IMG/VR virus record: IMGVR_UViG_3300022745_000072
Location: 1-41,245 of that record
Strand: one strand, 5' to 3'
Length of the DNA stretch: 41,245 bases
Source of the DNA: a virus
Below the pieces are notes generated by a model, which was not told the origin of the DNA, did not search any database, and saw nothing but the letters and a program-made list of their open reading frames with translations. Position numbers and translations under genes: made by a program. Positions 22,110 to 39,098 of the stretch are shown here, piece after piece. How positions within the stretch are numbered: position 1 is the stretch's first letter; every line of letters starts with the position of its first letter.

Positions 22110-22454
22110 TCAAGCGCTTTTTGTAATCGCCTCACGTACCACTTTCGCCACTTGTTCAATCATCGCTTCTGGGTCATTGTCAATCATGGTTCCGCTGTAG
22201 CGCAGAATGCGATAACCCAATTCAGACAACTTGTTGATCTTCCAACGATCTGCGTCTGTGTTATGGCGGCCACCCTTATAGGCATGCTGACCGCCGTCCA
22301 CTTCAACAGCCACTTTTAACGCTGGCCAAGAAAAATCGATCTGATGCTTCCGACCGGGGATCAGTTTCTGCTCACGCAATGGCGCGGGTAGATCCTTCGG
22401 CGCGAGTAGTTTCCACCAATGCTCGAACGCGGCTTCCAAATGACTGTTACTCAC
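22110..22454 (-). CDS. DUF559-like PD-(D/E)xK nuclease
   Basis: The GTG start at 22454 has GAGGAGGA about 8 bases upstream, better than an ATG at 22478. The 114-residue protein has the core of the DUF559/Vsr-like nuclease fold: KHQIDFSWPALKVAVEVDGGQHAYKG (Asp, Glu-Val-Asp, Gln-His), RWKINKLSELGYRILRY and a C-terminal helix. Such proteins could act in repair or as a junction resolvase during phage replication. The exact substrate is unknown. Confidence 0.78.
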   Translation of the reverse strand: MSNSHLEAAFEHWWKLLAPKDLPAPLREQKLIPGRKHQIDFSWPALKVAVEVDGGQHAYKGGRHNTDADRWKINKLSELGYRILRYSGTMIDNDPEAMIEQVAKVVREAITKSA

Positions 22455-22803
22455 GGTTTGAATCCTCCTCAGGATCAAACTTTATGTCCCATGTGATGTT
22501 TTTCAATGGCGTATCAACGGGATCTTCAAACCGCCACGTCGAATTATCGTCAGGCGCCTTATCTGGGGTATCACCCGTCCAGCCGCAATCGCACTGCCAA
22601 CGCTTTTCGACATACACGTAATGCAGAACCTTATCCCATGTTCCTCCGCACTGAGGGCAACGGCTGTCCATCATAGCGGCAGCCGCATCGGCGAGTTTCC
22701 CTAGCGCCGCTATTGTTTCATCGGACATGCCCTTGCCATGTGCATGGAAAGTCTGTCCACCTTCTGATCTATACCACCCTGAGTTATGCTTCTTTTTCGT
22801 CAC
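22447..22803 (-). CDS. Zinc-ribbon hypothetical protein (118 aa)
   Basis: The central part has CPQCGGTWDK and CDCGWTG, a likely zinc ribbon, between a basic N-terminus and an acidic C-terminus. It starts in an ATGA overlap with the polymerase stop and ends 8 bases inside the nuclease gene. No function is recognised. Confidence 0.6.
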   Translation of the reverse strand: MTKKKHNSGWYRSEGGQTFHAHGKGMSDETIAALGKLADAAAAMMDSRCPQCGGTWDKVLHYVYVEKRWQCDCGWTGDTPDKAPDDNSTWRFEDPVDTPLKNITWDIKFDPEEDSNRE

Positions 22804-25451
22804 GCTGCCACCTCACTCTGTTCTTCATCGCTGAGCGCCTCGATCCATTTCTGACACGCCTTGATCCGCTTCTTTCGGACTTTCAGTTCGGCAGCCAAAT
22901 TCTCAAAATGTTCCCTTACTTCTTCCAAGCTCATCCCATTCATGAAATCGGCGCGAAACATATTGGCCACACCTCCCTTTTCTTCGAGCTGCTTCAACCA
23001 CGCATAGACGACTTTGCGATAGTTCACCGCGTCGACTTTCACCAGCGCGCCCGTCGTCATTCGCATGACTGATTCCTCGGCGAGCGCTTCTTCATCCATC
23101 TTGATCACCTGCTGCAGCGCATTCCGCGCTTCCTCTCGGGTGGCAGGATCGGCAGTCTCCCACCGCTCGAAAGCAGGCGGCACATTGAACGATATGCCCA
23201 TCTCTGGCCACTCGACTACCCGCCGCTTATTGCGTGCTACAGATGCCGCCGTAGCAAGCTCTTTTAGCTTTTCATCGGGAAGGCTTGCCAGCTCGACCAA
23301 CACATCGCCATGGCAAGCGGTATCGGGGGCGGAAGCCGTCTTGCAAAAACAGCCTAGCTTCTTGAAGCGCAAGCTCGGCAGCCGGGCGATCAAGTCGGGC
23401 CGGGTGAGCAGATAGGCACGATACTTTTCGATCACCTGCGCCCGGGTTCCATCGCGACCGATCACGTACGGGTTGCCCCATCCCTGATCCTTCAATCCGC
23501 CCGTATTGCGCCCGATGTACACATCAAACCCGTTCGATACATGCACTACCGTGGAAGGCGGCAAGGGTAAAGGATCTGGGTGGAATTGACCCAAGCCCCA
23601 CTTATGCGCGTTCTCGTCTAAGTCTGGTTGCGCAATCCATTTAACGGGTGGGTTGGTGCGATGGTTGAGATCGGCAGGCATCACGGACTCCATAATGGAG
23701 GAAGCAATCGCAATCACCCGATCCCATTCCGAATGAAAGACGTTCAAGATCAGCGCGTCGTGCATATCGATTGCCACGTATGAGCGATGCCCAGCTGCGA
23801 CAAGCGCCTCGTCAATCTTCCAAATGGCGTTCTTAATGAGTTCACCGACTGCGCCTTGGCAAGCGTAGTTCCATGCCACATAGGGGCGCTTGGCATCGCA
23901 GGGCACTTTGCGCCCCGTCCACAACCGCACAAAACCTGTTGACTTCGCCTTGTCTGCCGCGGCTTGCTTAGCGGCTGCCACCTTCGGAAAAGCGCGATCC
24001 TTGGCTTCGAGCAGGTCTGCCGCTTCTTCAGGCGTGCAACCTAGTCGGCGGGATAGTGTCATCGCGCCCATCCCGTATGCCGTGCCGAAAGTGATCGTCT
24101 TGCCCTTCGAGCGTAACCGCTTGCGCTCACTGGCATCGCCATCCGTCCAAGCCTGCCCGAAATAAGATTCAGCCATGGCCGAATGAAAGTCAGCCGCGGA
24201 GCACGCACTCGCGAATGCGTTATCGGCGGCCAGTAGTGCCGCGATCCAGTTCTCCGCGTTGCTGTAGTCAATTTCGACAAGCGTCGCGCCTTCATCCCCC
24301 ACCAATACGCCCGCCATCGTGCCTGCAGGGTCATGCGCATTCTTCAAGCGCATTTTCAGGTTTTGGATGTTGGGATTAGAGGACTTGCGCCGTCCAGTTT
24401 CTGTCCCTACGCTCACCAGCGAATGCACACGGCCATCGATGGCGGCATGTTCGAGCAAGTTGCCAAGCGTGGCGATCATGCGGTCCACATCAATCCATGT
24501 AATCAAGTCGGCAAGCGCTTCTTCTGCTTCAGGGAACACTTCGACATATTTCTCAAGCGCATCGGCACCTGTGGACAATTCCCATTTGGCGGTGAACAGA
24601 TCCGCGTGATCGCGTAGTTTCGGGTTCGGCTTTGGTAGCCCTTTCACCGTCCAGATAAATTCACGCCGAGCGACAGGGCTGTTTGGCTTGCTCAGACCTG
24701 CCGCGCTGAGTCGGGCTTCACAATCAGCCGCCACCCGCCCAAGTTCCTCTATCCTTTCCTTGACACGCCCCGCATCAATTCGCACGCCTTGCGCAGCCAT
24801 CCGGCAATAGCTACGGGTGGCGGCATTCTCGACTTCGACGAGCGTAAGCTGAGTCGGCTTCATCTCGGCCAATTGTTCGCGATACACCGCCAAGGTGAGT
24901 TCGGCGTCGTGCTTGGCATAGTCGAGCAACACATCCAGCTCAAGCTGGTGCAGCTTGCCGCGTTGCTTCTTCACGTCCAGTTGTTGCTCTGGGACTTCGA
25001 TCCCGTGCGACTTGGCCACCTCAGCCAATGAGAAGCGCTTATCGACTGCAGGGTACAGAAGCCGCTCATTGGTCATCGTGTCCCACATCAGCTTCGGAAT
25101 TGTGCCCGGCACAAGGCGCGAGAGCTGCCGCACATCAAACACGGCATTGTGCATGATAATCGTCTTGGTTTCGTACAGCTTGCGCAGCCAGTTTTTCACG
25201 TGATCCGGCCATTGCCCATCACTGGCATACAACACGCCTGACCCCTCGTCCCATGCGAACGAGATCACCAGCACATCCGCCGCATACGATAGGCCGTAGT
25301 CGCTTTCAGGACCGATGCCGTTCCATTCGGTATCGGTTTCAGTATCGATGGCCACGCGGGTGGCTTTCTCAGCCTCAGCCATGGCGCGCTCATCAATCCG
25401 GTAAATGGGGGCAGGCTTCTCATCCTTACCCAGATCCATCATTTGTTGCAT
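22800..25451 (-). CDS. Family A DNA polymerase fused to DUF4326
   Basis: This is an 883-residue replicative polymerase. The 3'-5' exonuclease motifs are D36-T-E38, HNAVFD (101-106) and Y178xxxD182. Polymerase motif A is D395-YSNA-E400; motif B has R447, K451, F455 and Y459; motif C reads H564-D565-A566, where the family usually has HDE. Residues about 635-723 match DUF4326 (FDVYIGR, GWGNPYVIGRDGTR, LGCFC, CHGDVL). A further helical region of 160 residues has no clear match. It begins right after the helicase stop with GGAG upstream. F455 occupies the E. coli F762 position. Confidence 0.9.
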   Translation of the reverse strand: MQQMMDLGKDEKPAPIYRIDERAMAEAEKATRVAIDTETDTEWNGIGPESDYGLSYAADVLVISFAWDEGSGVLYASDGQWPDHVKNWLRKLYETKTIIMHNAVFDVRQLSRLVPGTIPKLMWDTMTNERLLYPAVDKRFSLAEVAKSHGIEVPEQQLDVKKQRGKLHQLELDVLLDYAKHDAELTLAVYREQLAEMKPTQLTLVEVENAATRSYCRMAAQGVRIDAGRVKERIEELGRVAADCEARLSAAGLSKPNSPVARREFIWTVKGLPKPNPKLRDHADLFTAKWELSTGADALEKYVEVFPEAEEALADLITWIDVDRMIATLGNLLEHAAIDGRVHSLVSVGTETGRRKSSNPNIQNLKMRLKNAHDPAGTMAGVLVGDEGATLVEIDYSNAENWIAALLAADNAFASACSAADFHSAMAESYFGQAWTDGDASERKRLRSKGKTITFGTAYGMGAMTLSRRLGCTPEEAADLLEAKDRAFPKVAAAKQAAADKAKSTGFVRLWTGRKVPCDAKRPYVAWNYACQGAVGELIKNAIWKIDEALVAAGHRSYVAIDMHDALILNVFHSEWDRVIAIASSIMESVMPADLNHRTNPPVKWIAQPDLDENAHKWGLGQFHPDPLPLPPSTVVHVSNGFDVYIGRNTGGLKDQGWGNPYVIGRDGTRAQVIEKYRAYLLTRPDLIARLPSLRFKKLGCFCKTASAPDTACHGDVLVELASLPDEKLKELATAASVARNKRRVVEWPEMGISFNVPPAFERWETADPATREEARNALQQVIKMDEEALAEESVMRMTTGALVKVDAVNYRKVVYAWLKQLEEKGGVANMFRADFMNGMSLEEVREHFENLAAELKVRKKRIKACQKWIEALSDEEQSEVAA

Positions 25452-27428: not shown

Positions 27429-30400
27429 CTAGTTTATGGCGCTGTTATCGGGTTCTTTCAGGTATTGGGACAGTGCAGTTAGTCCAATTTTGATTCCATC
27501 GGCGTTCAATTGGATAACCATCTGGCGAAGGGATAGCGCATACCGTTTCGGGTCAGCCGCCAACCATTCCATGACGCGAGTTTTAAGTGCCATGCGCCCC
27601 TCGTAAGCTTCCAGCTTCAACACCCACGGCTTGCCATCCCTCGGATCAATGCCACCAATCCTGACCCGCTTGTAGGCACGGTTGGCAGTATCGAAAGACA
27701 CACCCGCCAACGACGCGATCTTCTCTACATAGCTCTTGATCGGCTGCGGCTCGGTCTCGGTTTCATCAAACAAGCTCTGCAGCACCGTCGAGGTCACTTC
27801 GTCGAGGTGGGCAGTGTGGAACATCTGGAATTCATTCACTTTGTCGGAGCAAGGGAAAGCGGTAGCCAGATAGACATACTTCAAGCCTGCGCTTGAGTTC
27901 TTGCGGATGCGCTCCACACATTGCTTCAATTCACCCTTGATGGCATTCAGATACAGGCTGTTCACCCGTTCATCCTTGTAGCCCCAATAGCGATAGGCGC
28001 GGCCCTTGCCCTTTTCATCGACATAACGCAGGTAAGGCTCAAGCCGAATGATCCGATCGGCGCTCACTGGGATCGGGTCATTGTGATTCCAGATCTGCGC
28101 TTGCGTGAGCAGATCCGATTCCCTCAGTCTCGGCGTGCCAATGGCTAACACGGCACTCAGATCCTTGTAGTCATTGCGACCGCGCAAATTTCCAAACCAT
28201 TGCACGTATGCCGGGTCCAGCACTCCGGAGCGCTTCAACCAGTAACGGAGGAAGCTTTCGTCGCTGCCATCCTCGATCAGCTTCTTGTAAAGCACGACTA
28301 GAAGCGAGCCTTGATGCTTTTCGGCCAACTGGTGAATGAGCGTGATCGATTGCGCTAGGCTTGGAAACTTCATCTTGCGCAACTGCTCAGCGAGTTCAAG
28401 CGTGTCTTGAAAGGTGTAGTCACGCTTCCGTCGCTTCTTGAACCAGTCCACCACGTCGACGCGTTTCATGATCGTATCGGTGCGGCGCATGAGTGTTGAC
28501 TTGGTATTCTCAGTCCCTAGGTAACAGGTGGTGTGACCACCGGGGATCACTTGCCGATCAAAGGTGAACACTTGCCGAGGCCGTCCAGATAAATCCGTGA
28601 AGGCCTTCGTATAGTAGGAGTCCGGTTCGGTGGCATCCGTGACGATTACGCGCGTGTTCTGGGTGAAGCCGAACGGCTCCATCGGGTAAAGTTGCAGCGT
28701 GTGCCCACTTGGCACAATCCGACTATTCCAACGCTTTGAGCCTGCTTGATAGAGTGGATATTCGGCCTTGATCAGCGCGACCAGCTCAGGTACGAAGTTT
28801 GGCGGCAGCTCCTTGACTGCTTGCGGCTTGGCATTGATGATCGCCACGGTTGATATATCCGCCACGGCTTCGGCGCTCATCTCGCACACTCGACCCACCA
28901 ACCCCGGCGCAGCCCCTTCGAGCTTCTCGAATAACCACGCCCCGCCTAATCTCACAGCCTCATCGCCTTCTGCCGTGTTGGCTTGCACGATGTCCCGTAG
29001 GTAAGAGAGCAACAAGTCAAGTGTGGCCACTTCTTCAGGCCATGAGTCCATGGCGCTACTACTTGCTTCTAGTCTCATCTCTTTGAGCGGGATCACCGTG
29101 GGAGCGGCCATCGTTTTAAAGGGTGATTCGTCGATGATGATCAGCTTGCGATCCTTGGTCAGATCACTCATATACAGATGCGACGGTCTTACCACCACGA
29201 TCCCGTGGCGCTTGGCTTGCTCAAACTGGCTGAGGTAGTGCTTTTCCTTGCACGCGGCAGCCACGGGGCAAAAGTTGCACACCGAAGCGATTACGTTTCG
29301 CCCTTTGGCGGCCACGGCATCGGCTAGCTCGTGCTGTGCACAATACCCCGGCGAATTCTTGTCATCGGTTCGACCTGCGAAGAAGAAGAACAGACGCGGA
29401 TGGAGGTCAGCTTCGAAGCCAAGCGCCTTTGCCCATGCTTTCCCTTCAGGACCAGCCATCTTAAAGAGCGTGGCCACGATCACGCCGTTCTCCACGTTCG
29501 CAATCTCTCCACCCGGCACCGTACGCGCATCGGCATCGAATAGCGCATGTAGGGCGTGGTCAATGGCCTGCTCAATCGCTTTGCGTGTCTTCCCTACTCC
29601 GGGCGGCGTGGCAAGCCGTAGCAGCGTTCCTTTGCCCGTGGGCGTGGTCAAGTAAGCCCTAACGGCTTCATCCTGCTTGACCCGCAAGTCTTCGAGCGTG
29701 AGATCATCTTCGGGGAGCGGTATCGGCTCAATCTCAACCACGCGCTCTTCCACTTGCCGCTCAATTTCCTTTTCATCGACAATCAGCTCCACCACCAGCT
29801 TGACCGGCTCGACGTGTTGAAGCGTGGGTGAGGCTTCACTCTGGCTGATCACGGGCTGTTCGGCTGTGACCCGAATCAGGTATTCAGCCGGGGCGCTTCC
29901 GTCTATTAGGGGTAAATCGTCCGTGTCTCCCATGACGAGCGGCAACGACTCACGCGGCGCAAGCTGATCGGCGCGGCTGTATACCCAATTGACTTCCTCT
30001 TGTAGTTCGCTTAAATAGGCCTCTCCTGCGTACCATTTTTTAGCGGCTGGTAGTAGAAGCCCTTCGAACATCTCTTGAGGCATGCCTGCCCGCGCCGCTT
30101 CGAAAGAGAGCGCCATCACCATGTCGTGGCGGCTTCCTTTTTCAATCGGCTGTCCATGCACCAGATGGGCAAGGAAGCGATCCCCGACTGAGTACGAGTC
30201 AAGCGGCAAGCCTTCGCGCTTTGGCCGACTCACCATGGCGGGAGCAGGGGGTGGGAGATAAGGCTCGGCAGCCGCCTTAATGCTTTCGGGGCTGTAAGTG
30301 TTGGGTTGATGCCATAGCACGCGAGCCAGCGCCCCGCCTCGCTCCGGCTTGCGATTGATGAAGCCGGGCAAGCGCATCATGCGGGTGGCCTCATGTACTT

Positions 30401-31064
30401 TCAGATCCATCTTGAGACCTAGCAAGCCATGCAGCGACGCATAGAAGGCGCGGCTATACAGCTTGTAGGCTTGCGCGGCTTCAGGTGTGTAGAGCGTGAT
30501 CGGCTCACTTAACACGTGAGCGCACTGGATGCCGCCACCCGAGAAAATGATCCAAGTCGGCGGCATGTCCATCGATAAGAGCGCATCCACCACAGGCGCG
30601 AGCGGCTGATTCTGGGCAGCGCAATCGAAGTCAGCCCACAGCGCCGACACGAACATGAGTTCATCCAGCCTGCCGCGTGCTTTCTCCCCGCGTTCGCCTG
30701 CCCGATGTAACACGCTGGATCGGCGGGCTGCACCGTTCCAATAAATGGATCCGTGTCCCTTGCTGACTTTCTGAGGCTGGTTATTCTGGACGGTAGCCCA
30801 ATCGAGCCAACTGCCCCAATACTGATCGCGCGTATCGGCAAACTCCCACCGTGTCTCAGTCGTGCCGTGTTTCTCACCCGCGCGATCGATGTAGCTGTCA
30901 TCGCTCACGAGACCTAGCACCGCGTTGCCTGCGGAGCTGGTCGGCATGGCTCCCCACACCGACCGAAGAAACGCTTCAGCCTGTTCGCGTGGTTTCGCCC
31001 GTACGGCAGGCTGATCGGCGTAGGAGGCTGCCAGCGCGGCAGCCTGTTGCGGATAAGGGAGCAT
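27429..31064 (-). CDS. AEP-type primase fused to Fe-S-like SF2 helicase
   Basis: This 1211-residue replication protein has an N-terminal archaeo-eukaryotic primase pattern: D145-F-D147, S175-GGG then H183, and RMMRLPGFINRKPER (about 228-242). From about 470 a helicase starts: Walker A TPPGVGKT (486-493) and Walker B IIIDE (642-646). Between them Cys575, 596, 599 and 605 are spaced like the iron-sulphur cysteines of XPD/DinG helicases. A QCVERIR element (1048-1054) fits motif VI. The C-terminus has a possible HTH. It is coupled to the upstream gene by TAATG. Confidence 0.8.
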   Translation of the reverse strand: MLPYPQQAAALAASYADQPAVRAKPREQAEAFLRSVWGAMPTSSAGNAVLGLVSDDSYIDRAGEKHGTTETRWEFADTRDQYWGSWLDWATVQNNQPQKVSKGHGSIYWNGAARRSSVLHRAGERGEKARGRLDELMFVSALWADFDCAAQNQPLAPVVDALLSMDMPPTWIIFSGGGIQCAHVLSEPITLYTPEAAQAYKLYSRAFYASLHGLLGLKMDLKVHEATRMMRLPGFINRKPERGGALARVLWHQPNTYSPESIKAAAEPYLPPPAPAMVSRPKREGLPLDSYSVGDRFLAHLVHGQPIEKGSRHDMVMALSFEAARAGMPQEMFEGLLLPAAKKWYAGEAYLSELQEEVNWVYSRADQLAPRESLPLVMGDTDDLPLIDGSAPAEYLIRVTAEQPVISQSEASPTLQHVEPVKLVVELIVDEKEIERQVEERVVEIEPIPLPEDDLTLEDLRVKQDEAVRAYLTTPTGKGTLLRLATPPGVGKTRKAIEQAIDHALHALFDADARTVPGGEIANVENGVIVATLFKMAGPEGKAWAKALGFEADLHPRLFFFFAGRTDDKNSPGYCAQHELADAVAAKGRNVIASVCNFCPVAAACKEKHYLSQFEQAKRHGIVVVRPSHLYMSDLTKDRKLIIIDESPFKTMAAPTVIPLKEMRLEASSSAMDSWPEEVATLDLLLSYLRDIVQANTAEGDEAVRLGGAWLFEKLEGAAPGLVGRVCEMSAEAVADISTVAIINAKPQAVKELPPNFVPELVALIKAEYPLYQAGSKRWNSRIVPSGHTLQLYPMEPFGFTQNTRVIVTDATEPDSYYTKAFTDLSGRPRQVFTFDRQVIPGGHTTCYLGTENTKSTLMRRTDTIMKRVDVVDWFKKRRKRDYTFQDTLELAEQLRKMKFPSLAQSITLIHQLAEKHQGSLLVVLYKKLIEDGSDESFLRYWLKRSGVLDPAYVQWFGNLRGRNDYKDLSAVLAIGTPRLRESDLLTQAQIWNHNDPIPVSADRIIRLEPYLRYVDEKGKGRAYRYWGYKDERVNSLYLNAIKGELKQCVERIRKNSSAGLKYVYLATAFPCSDKVNEFQMFHTAHLDEVTSTVLQSLFDETETEPQPIKSYVEKIASLAGVSFDTANRAYKRVRIGGIDPRDGKPWVLKLEAYEGRMALKTRVMEWLAADPKRYALSLRQMVIQLNADGIKIGLTALSQYLKEPDNSAIN

Positions 31065-36303: not shown

Positions 36304-36810
36304 ATGAAAAAACTATTCTATGCGTTTTTAGGTGTGTTGTGCGTGGTAGCGGTGATAATGGTATTGCATACCGTGAATAACTTACCTGATTCAGCATCGG
36401 CAGGTGCCAGTGCTCCACAACCGCAAGCGCAAGCTAAACAGCCTCAAATATTGCCGACTGCTAGCTTTAATTGGGATGGCAAGGCGATCACCGCATCAGG
36501 TATCGGCGATGCCTCATTTGATTGGATTATAGGCATGACAGACGGGACTTATAAAACCGTAGTGCAATTATCCACAGACCCAACGGGACGAACAAATACA
36601 AATTATTTTCACGCCAAGCTGATTCCGGTAGGGGACACCCAGAATTGCTTAGAGCAAGCGCTTATATTTGAGGATGTGGTAGGGCGTAATGAAGTAAGTT
36701 CCGTCCAACGGTTTCAAATATTCGGCGGGGTATCTAGCTGTAGAATGGTGATGCAAGTAAGCTTGACACGTCCGTTAGCATGGCGTTTGGTTACTACAGC
36801 CCTTAAATGA
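36304..36810 (+). CDS. Membrane-anchored extracytoplasmic protein (168 aa)
   Basis: Residues 5-22 form a signal anchor (FYAFLGVLCVVAVIMVLH), then a Ser/Ala/Gln/Pro linker and a beta-rich domain with two cysteines near the end (QNCLEQAL; SSCRMVMQVSL). It lies between repressor and integrase and can be expressed in the lysogen. GAGGTG precedes the ATG, and an extended -10 (TGCTACCAT, 36271-36279) may be its promoter. Superinfection exclusion or another conversion function is plausible by context. Confidence 0.62.
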   Translation: MKKLFYAFLGVLCVVAVIMVLHTVNNLPDSASAGASAPQPQAQAKQPQILPTASFNWDGKAITASGIGDASFDWIIGMTDGTYKTVVQLSTDPTGRTNTNYFHAKLIPVGDTQNCLEQALIFEDVVGRNEVSSVQRFQIFGGVSSCRMVMQVSLTRPLAWRLVTTALK

Positions 36811-38381
36811 CCCGCGCTGTTATCTGGTGTGCCGTTAGCGATCCTCAGCAAGCCGAAGAGGGGAAAGAGTCGCTCCCTTCTCAAGAGGCTGACGGCCTTC
36901 GCGCGGCAGCCCTGCTCGGTCTGGATGTGGTGGCAGTATTGAAAGTCCCCGGCTTTAGTCGCGAGTACCTAACCGCCCAAGAATGCGCAGACGACATGAG
37001 CGCAGCTGGCTACACCGCCATGCAGGATTTGCTCAACCTGATGAATCGGCGCGGCTTCGATGTATTGATCTGCCGAGATGCCGATCGGTTTGGGCGCACG
37101 CAGTCGCTCATCTCCTACATCACCGAATACATAGTCAGGGTGATGGGCGCTCGAATATTCACGACAAGTCGCGGCCAGTGGGTGGACGGTACCAACTTTC
37201 GCATGTGGGCAGCCATGAGCGGCTTTGCTGCTGCACAAGAGCTGGACACGTTTCGCGCAAGGCGTGCCATTGGTATGAAAAGCCGGATTGAACGCGGCTT
37301 GCCTGCTTCGAATGTGCCGTTCTCCCACACCTATTTACGCGATGAAAAAGGCAACCCATTGGCGCTTATTCTCAACCCGATTCACACGCGCTTGTGGGAT
37401 GATTTGTTCACGCTCTTTGTAGAGCAACGCACGCCTTATAACAAGCTCTCCCGTGCCCTCTACGAGCAATACGGGCACGTCAACCCCGCTACGGGTAAGC
37501 GCTGGTCAGCCCACACGCTCCCCTATATGCTGCACAATCCTTTCTTTTGGGGGCACAGTGCCGCCGATTTCCGCAAGGCAGACAAGCACATCAGCACGCG
37601 CGGCAAGTGGGCTTACGATGAGAGTGAGCCACCCCCGGCAGGCATTCGCATCTATCGCAACAAGCACGCGCCCGTGTACAGCGGCGAACGAGCCGAACGG
37701 ATGAAAGCAGAACTCGATCGGCGTAATCGCCTTACCGGGTCAGCCTCCCCGCGTTCGATTAATCCGTATGTGGGCTTGGTGTTTTGCGGGGTGTGTGGCT
37801 TCCGTATGGCTTTCACGCGCTCCCAAACGGGCAAGCACACCTACATCTATTATCGATGCAGCACGAAGGATCGCGATACAGTCAAGTCGGATCTGCCGAT
37901 GTGCCGCAATGGCAAGCTCTCCATTCGCCGACTCAACGAAGGTGTCCAAGCATTTCTGCAAGCCGTGTTTGCCGATGAATCAATTCTCACGCCTGCTGAG
38001 AACAGAAGCCATGCGCAACACATCGAAGCAATGGAAAGCGAGGCAGCAGACTTAGCCGAACAACTCACCAGCATGATCCATGAGCAAACCCTGCGCAAAG
38101 GCTCAGCGCGTGCCTTCTATGCCACGCAAATCGACCAGATGGGCGAACGCTTGGACATTGTTGAATCGGCGCTCAGCAGGGCACGCCGTGAGCAAAGCGC
38201 ATCGAGTGCGCAAAGCCAAGCGAGGAAAGCGAAAATAAAAAGCCTTAAGGGGCAAACGGTGGAGGCAATCATGGATCTGATCGAAACTGACCCAAGCCAA
38301 TTTAATCAACTGCTTTCAATTCTGATCAAGCGCATCACCTACATACGCGACGGCGATCCCGATCTGACTATTGAAGTTTGA
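36807..38381 (+). CDS. int: Large serine recombinase (integrase)
   Basis: The 524-residue enzyme shows a resolvase domain with S11 (WCAVSDPQQ), ESLPSQ, and DADRFGRTQS holding R94 and R97. A recombinase domain follows, then a zinc ribbon (C327, C330, C351, C366) and a long coiled coil from about 390. The position corresponding to resolvase Arg8 (normally R in Y-x-R-x-S) is A9. It starts in an ATGA overlap with the cargo gene. Serine integrases join attP and attB. Confidence 0.88.
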   Translation: MTRAVIWCAVSDPQQAEEGKESLPSQEADGLRAAALLGLDVVAVLKVPGFSREYLTAQECADDMSAAGYTAMQDLLNLMNRRGFDVLICRDADRFGRTQSLISYITEYIVRVMGARIFTTSRGQWVDGTNFRMWAAMSGFAAAQELDTFRARRAIGMKSRIERGLPASNVPFSHTYLRDEKGNPLALILNPIHTRLWDDLFTLFVEQRTPYNKLSRALYEQYGHVNPATGKRWSAHTLPYMLHNPFFWGHSAADFRKADKHISTRGKWAYDESEPPPAGIRIYRNKHAPVYSGERAERMKAELDRRNRLTGSASPRSINPYVGLVFCGVCGFRMAFTRSQTGKHTYIYYRCSTKDRDTVKSDLPMCRNGKLSIRRLNEGVQAFLQAVFADESILTPAENRSHAQHIEAMESEAADLAEQLTSMIHEQTLRKGSARAFYATQIDQMGERLDIVESALSRARREQSASSAQSQARKAKIKSLKGQTVEAIMDLIETDPSQFNQLLSILIKRITYIRDGDPDLTIEV

Positions 38382-38441: not shown

Positions 38442-38493
38442 TTGACATTACCGAATTCGGTATTAAAATGTAATCATAGTACGAAATTCAGTA
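38442..38493 (+). promoter_or_regulatory. Consensus-like promoter with twin operators
   Basis: TTGACA (38442-38447), 16-base spacer and TAAAAT (38464-38469). The spacer holds the perfect 14-bp palindrome TACCGAATTCGGTA (38449-38462). A related site TACGAAATTCAGTA (38480-38493, 11 of 14 matching) lies just after the predicted start point; centres are 31 bp apart. It drives the gene at 38511. Confidence 0.75.
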
Positions 38494-38510
38494 AACAAGG
38501 ACTAACAAAC

Positions 38511-39098
38511 ATGTACTCAGTAATGATTATCAACGGCGAAATTCTGGTAAACGATGGCACCGACGAACACGATAGCAAGGTGATTTCGATCAGTGGGCAA
38601 ACTGCAACCTTGCGCAATAAAGGCAACGGTTACGAATGGACTGAAAATATTTCAGTGCTCGAAGAAAAACTTGAATCGTATGACACTGAATGGGAAGATG
38701 TCGTCGTCAGCTTGGGCGGTGAAATTTCCGATGAATATGCAGAAGTTCAGGAATCACTGGATGCAGTCGTGACGACCGTTGAGGCTTCCGAGGAATACGG
38801 CATCAACGAAGATACCATGCGCAAAATTGCCCAGAATGCTACTTATGCACGTAAAAGCGGAGCCACTCACCTCATTCACCGCAAGTCGCTGGAAACGTAC
38901 CTGCTCTCTTCCGATTGCGAAGTGTACGAATATCAAGACGCGTGGGCAGTTCGCACCCCAGCACATCGCCTGACTGGATTGACCAAAGCACAAGCGTGGC
39001 TGATTGCGTTCCAGTATGGGCGCTCAGATACCCGCTACCAAGCCGCAATCAAGGCCGCGAACGTGCCTCAAACGCCCGATGTCGATATGGGTAACTAA
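38511..39098 (+). CDS. Excisionase/directionality-factor candidate with HTH (195 aa)
   Basis: The ATG at 38511 is chosen because it lies behind the promoter and an AAGGA site; the longer frame begins in the promoter. The N-terminal 100 residues are acidic and beta-rich (YSVMIINGEILVNDGTDEHD; WEDVVVSLGGEI). Residues about 105-145 (YGINEDTMRKIAQNATYARK, GATHLIHRKSLETYL) match the MerR/excisionase-type helix-turn-helix. Next to int and the attP-like site, it may be the recombination directionality factor or a regulator. It ends at a strong terminator. Confidence 0.6.
   Translation: MYSVMIINGEILVNDGTDEHDSKVISISGQTATLRNKGNGYEWTENISVLEEKLESYDTEWEDVVVSLGGEISDEYAEVQESLDAVVTTVEASEEYGINEDTMRKIAQNATYARKSGATHLIHRKSLETYLLSSDCEVYEYQDAWAVRTPAHRLTGLTKAQAWLIAFQYGRSDTRYQAAIKAANVPQTPDVDMGN

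Follow-up and report, generated by a model that had tools for sequence, protein, structure and literature searches.

A DUF4326 domain between the family A DNA polymerase and C-terminal parts of a phage protein, and its possible role at the replication fork

According to the text of two papers by Iyer and colleagues (PMC7824862, PMC9503650), DUF4326 occurs fused to SLOG, Macro, NADAR, replication and restriction-modification components. The same text predicts that it is an enzyme acting on ADP-ribose derivatives and processing their phosphates, and that it links NAD+ signalling to replication and to restriction-modification. DNA ADP-ribosylation stalls replication (PMC7003065), and mutations in DNA polymerase let phages escape DarTG (PMC11481870). 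In the literature, no activity was found for any DUF4326 protein. The first-pass annotation of the locus described here had characterized DUF4326 as a usually stand-alone phage protein of unknown role; the domain is indeed mostly stand-alone, but fusions and a predicted role on ADP-ribose derivatives have been published.

The window, that is, the whole stretch of DNA analysed, is a 41,245-base linear IMG/VR virus record that encodes phage head, portal, terminase and tail proteins and a serine integrase. According to the ORF listing, the polymerase gene is a single open frame of 883 codons. Its features and those of the adjacent genes are as follows.

22800..25451, minus strand: 883-residue protein with exonuclease, family A DNA polymerase, DUF4326 and C-terminal domains (ORF and Pfam)
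24879..25388, minus strand: 3'-5' exonuclease domain, residues 22-191 (PF01612, 1.3e-8)
23673..24587, minus strand: family A polymerase domain, residues 289-593 (PF00476 DNA_pol_A, 2e-43)
24249..24269, minus strand: motif A, DYSNAEN, a clade-specific variant of DYSQIEL
24072..24101, minus strand: motif B, KTITFGTAYG
23751..23765, minus strand: motif C, MHDAL, residue 563, HDA replacing HDE
23292..23534, minus strand: DUF4326 (PF14216), residues 640-720, directly after the conserved polymerase end KWGLGQFHP
22803..23270, minus strand: C-terminal helical domain of about 150 residues, residues 728-883, related to the polymerase C termini of L002 and L003
25452..27320, minus strand: SF2 helicase gene in the same operon, immediately next to the polymerase start
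27429..31064, minus strand: 1211-residue protein, probable primase-helicase (weak primase match, AEP-primase-like N-terminal motifs by eye, Walker A)
22447..22803, minus strand: 118-residue Cys-rich protein overlapping the polymerase stop

The four-part architecture of the 883-residue protein is almost certainly real. The exonuclease and polymerase motifs, which the first-pass annotation had called clear, are borne out by the PF01612 and PF00476 matches, the latter scoring 149.2 bits against a cut-off of 34.3, and by direct reading: Exo I (DTET), Exo II (N..FD) and Exo III (YAKHD) are intact, the catalytic Asp residues of motifs A and C (D395 and D565) and the steric-gate Glu of motif A are kept, as is the R...K...F/Y..YG pattern of motif B, and Ala stands in place of the Glu of HDE. 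Modelled residues 13-625 are mostly confident; the shallow alignment beyond residue 625 leaves the full-length model uninformative there. The polymerase model matched Bst Pol I (Foldseek E 1.6e-20), with Klenow and phage G20c Pol also matched, and profile comparison likewise gave Klenow/Taq. Judged from their sequences, polymerase and exonuclease both look intact. Motif C had been flagged as altered, and HDA is present; however, HDA or HDS is found in every relative with a readable motif C, just as DYSNAEN is common to the nearest relatives, and HDA is thus a clade trait unlinked to DUF4326. A reading of motif C as the sign of an altered or dead polymerase tied to the fusion was discarded on this ground, and fused polymerases of another lineage (L081 and L151) have the ordinary HDE.

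Nine close polymerase relatives were compared, four on IMG/VR contigs (L002-L004, L006) and five from Chloroflexota MAGs (L011-L015), all about 38-48% identical to the window protein across the polymerase. In a tree, the window polymerase falls inside this DYSNAEN clade, where the tree supports no particular branching for it. The phage lineage, and by inference its host, is probably Chloroflexota (Anaerolineae), as judged from these relatives. A large serine integrase gene (36807-38381, plus strand) is followed at 38442-39098 (plus strand) by a gene for a protein with weak excisionase/HTH matches; together with the relatives in Chloroflexota MAG contigs, these genes suggest a temperate phage.

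DUF4326 is absent from the polymerases of all nine relatives, of which L015 is uninformative since its contig ends before the insertion point, and the records of the four IMG/VR relatives hold no DUF4326 anywhere in their available sequence. The polymerases of L011-L014 and L004 stop between a few residues and about two dozen past the KWG motif, where the window protein instead continues into DUF4326. Those of L002 and L003 run on into a domain related to window residues 728-883 (23% identity to L002 over 71 residues, pairwise BLASTP E 5e-5), in keeping with the further helical domain noted in the first-pass annotation. With nine relatives lacking DUF4326 and two having the related C-terminal domain, DUF4326 appears to have been inserted exactly at the natural end of the polymerase, between it and an older C-terminal domain. 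An assembly join, named at the outset as a possible source of the read-through, is unlikely, because the frame is open throughout, both flanks derive from the same ancestral protein, and G+C is even (0.57, 0.59 and 0.55); this candidate was rejected as unlikely on these sequence features. The exact fusion is known from one contig, and no second contig with it was found.

The domain search proposed in the first-pass annotation confirmed a complete DUF4326 after residue about 630: PF14216 matched residues 640-720 (7.2e-19, 68.7 bits against a cut-off of 25), covering profile positions 9-82 of 82, and the strings VYIGR, GNPYVIGRDGTR, GCFC and CHGDVL were located at residues 644, 659, 700 and 713. 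Nine columns are invariant across 55-57 DUF4326 sequences, and the window keeps all nine, with the invariant R, P, CxC and CHGD residues present. The structure prediction that had also been proposed was informative in part, yielding a confident DUF4326 model (pLDDT 95.5) but no relative in the PDB. Foldseek against the PDB found no solved structure alike (best E 4.8) and, in particular, no rhodanese or Cys-phosphatase fold, a weak test for so small a domain; sequence searches for PDB relatives gave only meaningless repeat-protein matches. Beyond the PDB, all Foldseek matches were to other DUF4326 proteins, from phages, haloviruses and giant viruses, one of them named as NADAR with tyrosine phosphatase. 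Homology to DUF488 is at most suggested, by a shared C..P..CH motif that hhalign aligned (PF04343/PF22751) at a non-significant P of 0.079, with two weak PF22751 matches (E 0.0047 and 0.0044).

In the model, the invariant Cys residues follow a short strand and precede a helix, a placement compatible with the published rhodanese-phosphatase proposal. DUF4326 may be pictured as a small domain whose probable active site depends on Cys and lies at a strand-loop-helix turn, where Cys72, Cys74, Cys84-His85 and Asp87 (numbering of the modelled segment) are the putative active-site residues; the DUF4326 cysteines of the window protein are C701, C703 and C713, and we consider it moderately probable that the domain is catalytic. 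A point against this is that the loop between Cys74 and Cys84 varies in length, unlike the loop of classical phosphatases. Instead of carrying out catalysis, the three Cys and the His might coordinate a metal, and DUF4326 would then be a non-catalytic module that assists the polymerase in holding DNA or in contacting another replisome protein. Such a module would explain why these residues are invariant in a CxC...CH arrangement, why they stay in diverged chromosomal copies where Asp87 changes, and why DUF4326 is joined to enzymes that work on DNA. A single metal site fits poorly, however, with Cys84 and His85 being direct neighbours; the further conservation of Arg19, Asn31-Pro32 and Gly86-Asp87 looks more like that of an active site, and DUF4326 is found fused to SLOG domains, which handle nucleotides; we regard the metal-binding module as rather unlikely and favour the Cys-dependent active site.

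Of about 50,700 phage records, 584 contain DUF4326 at E <= 1e-3, and giant viruses carry it too; phage N4 gp12 is one stand-alone example. A scan of IMG/VR with the domain returned 80 loci, mostly stand-alone proteins of about 85-120 residues. The survey of fusions suggested by the first-pass annotation turned up joins to family A and family B polymerases, an SNF2-type helicase and SLOG domains. In L075/L085 and L081, DUF4326 lies N-terminal to a family A polymerase of a different lineage with ordinary motifs, and a further scan added L151, whose DUF4326-PolA fusion is 63% identical to that of L081 over nearly its full length. In L070, a single short contig, it lies N-terminal to a family B polymerase (phrog_1252; one relative is annotated as family B). 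L039 carries DUF4326 fused to the SNF2-type helicase, and the SLOG fusions of L152, L154 (below the curated cut-off) and L157 were confirmed.

These fusions bear on whether the window protein arose by chance, through read-through into a neighbouring mobile gene or a join to it, without the parts working together. The gene for DUF4326 is mobile and patchily distributed, and the L070 fusion looks recent by sequence comparison: it is missing from those relatives, about 68-77% identical, in which the start of the polymerase was read, and in L170 a gene of its own encodes DUF4326, 1.9 kb upstream of the polymerase. The window fusion, too, was seen once. Against this, the window domain shares a single frame with the two parts of one ancestral protein that flank it and retains all the invariant residues, and the L081/L151 fusion has been kept despite divergence; a chance join therefore seems very unlikely. 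Fusions that arose separately, to family A polymerases at either end, to a family B polymerase and to a helicase, point to the fork as the workplace of DUF4326.

Several observations made during this survey concern the DUF4326 proteins themselves. In L075 (3863-6490 and downstream; also in L085), the motif B region of the DUF4326-PolA gene is split after NFG by an insert that in L075 holds an HNH-like ORF, and the polymerase frame resumes at VYGMTEYG; the interruption looks like an intron with a homing endonuclease. Stand-alone DUF4326 phage proteins (phrog_24867; NC_042115, our L099) are annotated as 'ribonucleotide reductase NrdA-like', apparently an error passed on from record to record. 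Chromosomal DUF4326 proteins of Anaerolineae end in a domain that by eye is ASCH-like (L119, L123) or NADAR-like (L103, L104); a Pfam search gave no match for these partners, and they were not used.

In the window, the polymerase gene begins immediately past the stop codon of the SF2 helicase gene, with a ribosome-binding-like site, GGAGAAGG, just upstream. The 1211-residue protein had a weak PHROG match only (4.2e-6) and no match in a Pfam search. The polymerase, SF2 helicase and primase-helicase-like genes form a replication module, and the label 'replicative' given to the polymerase in the first-pass annotation fits the two genes upstream, as read from their sequences. Among the window genes scanned, none was a NADAR, Macro or SLOG gene. 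A gene for a DUF559/very-short-patch-repair-like endonuclease lies two genes downstream of the polymerase (22110-22478, minus strand), and an N6/N4 DNA methylase gene (PF01555; 20818-21390, minus strand) matches part of its family profile and is possibly a truncated or permuted form.

Elsewhere, stand-alone DUF4326 genes have varied neighbours, among which no partner dominates and, specifically, no NAD+/ADP-ribose partner does. PF00476 was present in 12 of the 50 DUF4326 records searched whole, in most of the 12 not adjacent to DUF4326; in L023, the DUF4326 gene lies between a type-4 uracil-DNA glycosylase-like gene (by eye) and PolA. Thymidylate synthase, ribonucleotide reductase and nicotinamide salvage genes occur near DUF4326 in some phages, as would be expected if the domain processed nucleotides or other precursor-pool molecules, for example by removing phosphates, and the fusion served only for channelling or for joint production with the polymerase. 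The role on terminal phosphates of ADP-ribose products that is predicted in the text of the published work would suit such an enzyme. Each of these neighbour types is few in number, however, and that DUF4326 has been joined covalently to polymerases and a helicase more than once suggests that it needs to be at the DNA, which leaves the precursor-pool explanation unlikely.

We instead propose that a Cys-dependent DUF4326 on the polymerase handles nucleotide-type groups at the fork so that replication continues, a proposal that as a whole is tentative, being possible rather than probable. DUF4326 would have been inserted into the family A polymerase of a Chloroflexota-associated phage lineage, with polymerase and exonuclease working as usual. 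The tethered domain would act on nucleotide-type groups met at the fork, the likeliest being ADP-ribose-derived or phosphate-bearing adducts, or small molecules from host defence; replication would then not be blocked, and NAD+/ADP-ribose-based host attack would perhaps be countered. That the substrate is ADP-ribose- or nucleotide-derived falls just short of an even chance, action at the fork as counter-defence is unlikely, and the narrower possibility that DUF4326, tethered to the replisome, strips ADP-ribose (or related) adducts from template DNA, directed against DarT-type host defence, is more doubtful still. The role at the fork, or in nucleotide or base handling, suggested in the first-pass annotation is plausible, and is strengthened by the separate polymerase and helicase fusions, with catalysis, substrate, coupling to the fork and a counter-defence role being what we infer. 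Since other viruses separately attached DUF4326 to other polymerases and helicases, a clean-up or sensing job at the fork is probable, and a polymerase-tethered DUF4326 would be well placed to clear or sense ADP-ribose-type groups. If DUF4326 does remove adducts, the window would encode a polymerase that brings its own means of lesion reversal against host defence, and otherwise similar polymerases with and without the domain offer clean test proteins.

The window protein shares the exonuclease and polymerase fold and motifs with Klenow/Bst Pol I and phage G20c Pol, but, unlike these, has DYSNAEN in motif A, HDA in motif C and two C-terminal additions. The DYSNAEN-type polymerases of the nine relatives have the same unusual motifs; none carries DUF4326 and most end at the polymerase. 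In Microbacterium phage A3Wally (genes 117-114), a family A polymerase and DUF4326 occur in one replication cluster as separate genes, with a RuvC-like resolvase gene between them. The published fusions (PMC7824862, PMC9503650) involve the same domain, likewise independently fused to replication components according to their text; that text, figures aside, names no family A polymerase of the window clade and describes no insertion between a polymerase and a C-terminal domain. That DUF4326 tends to be joined to replication proteins had been reported before; within this tendency, the architecture of the window fusion is new.
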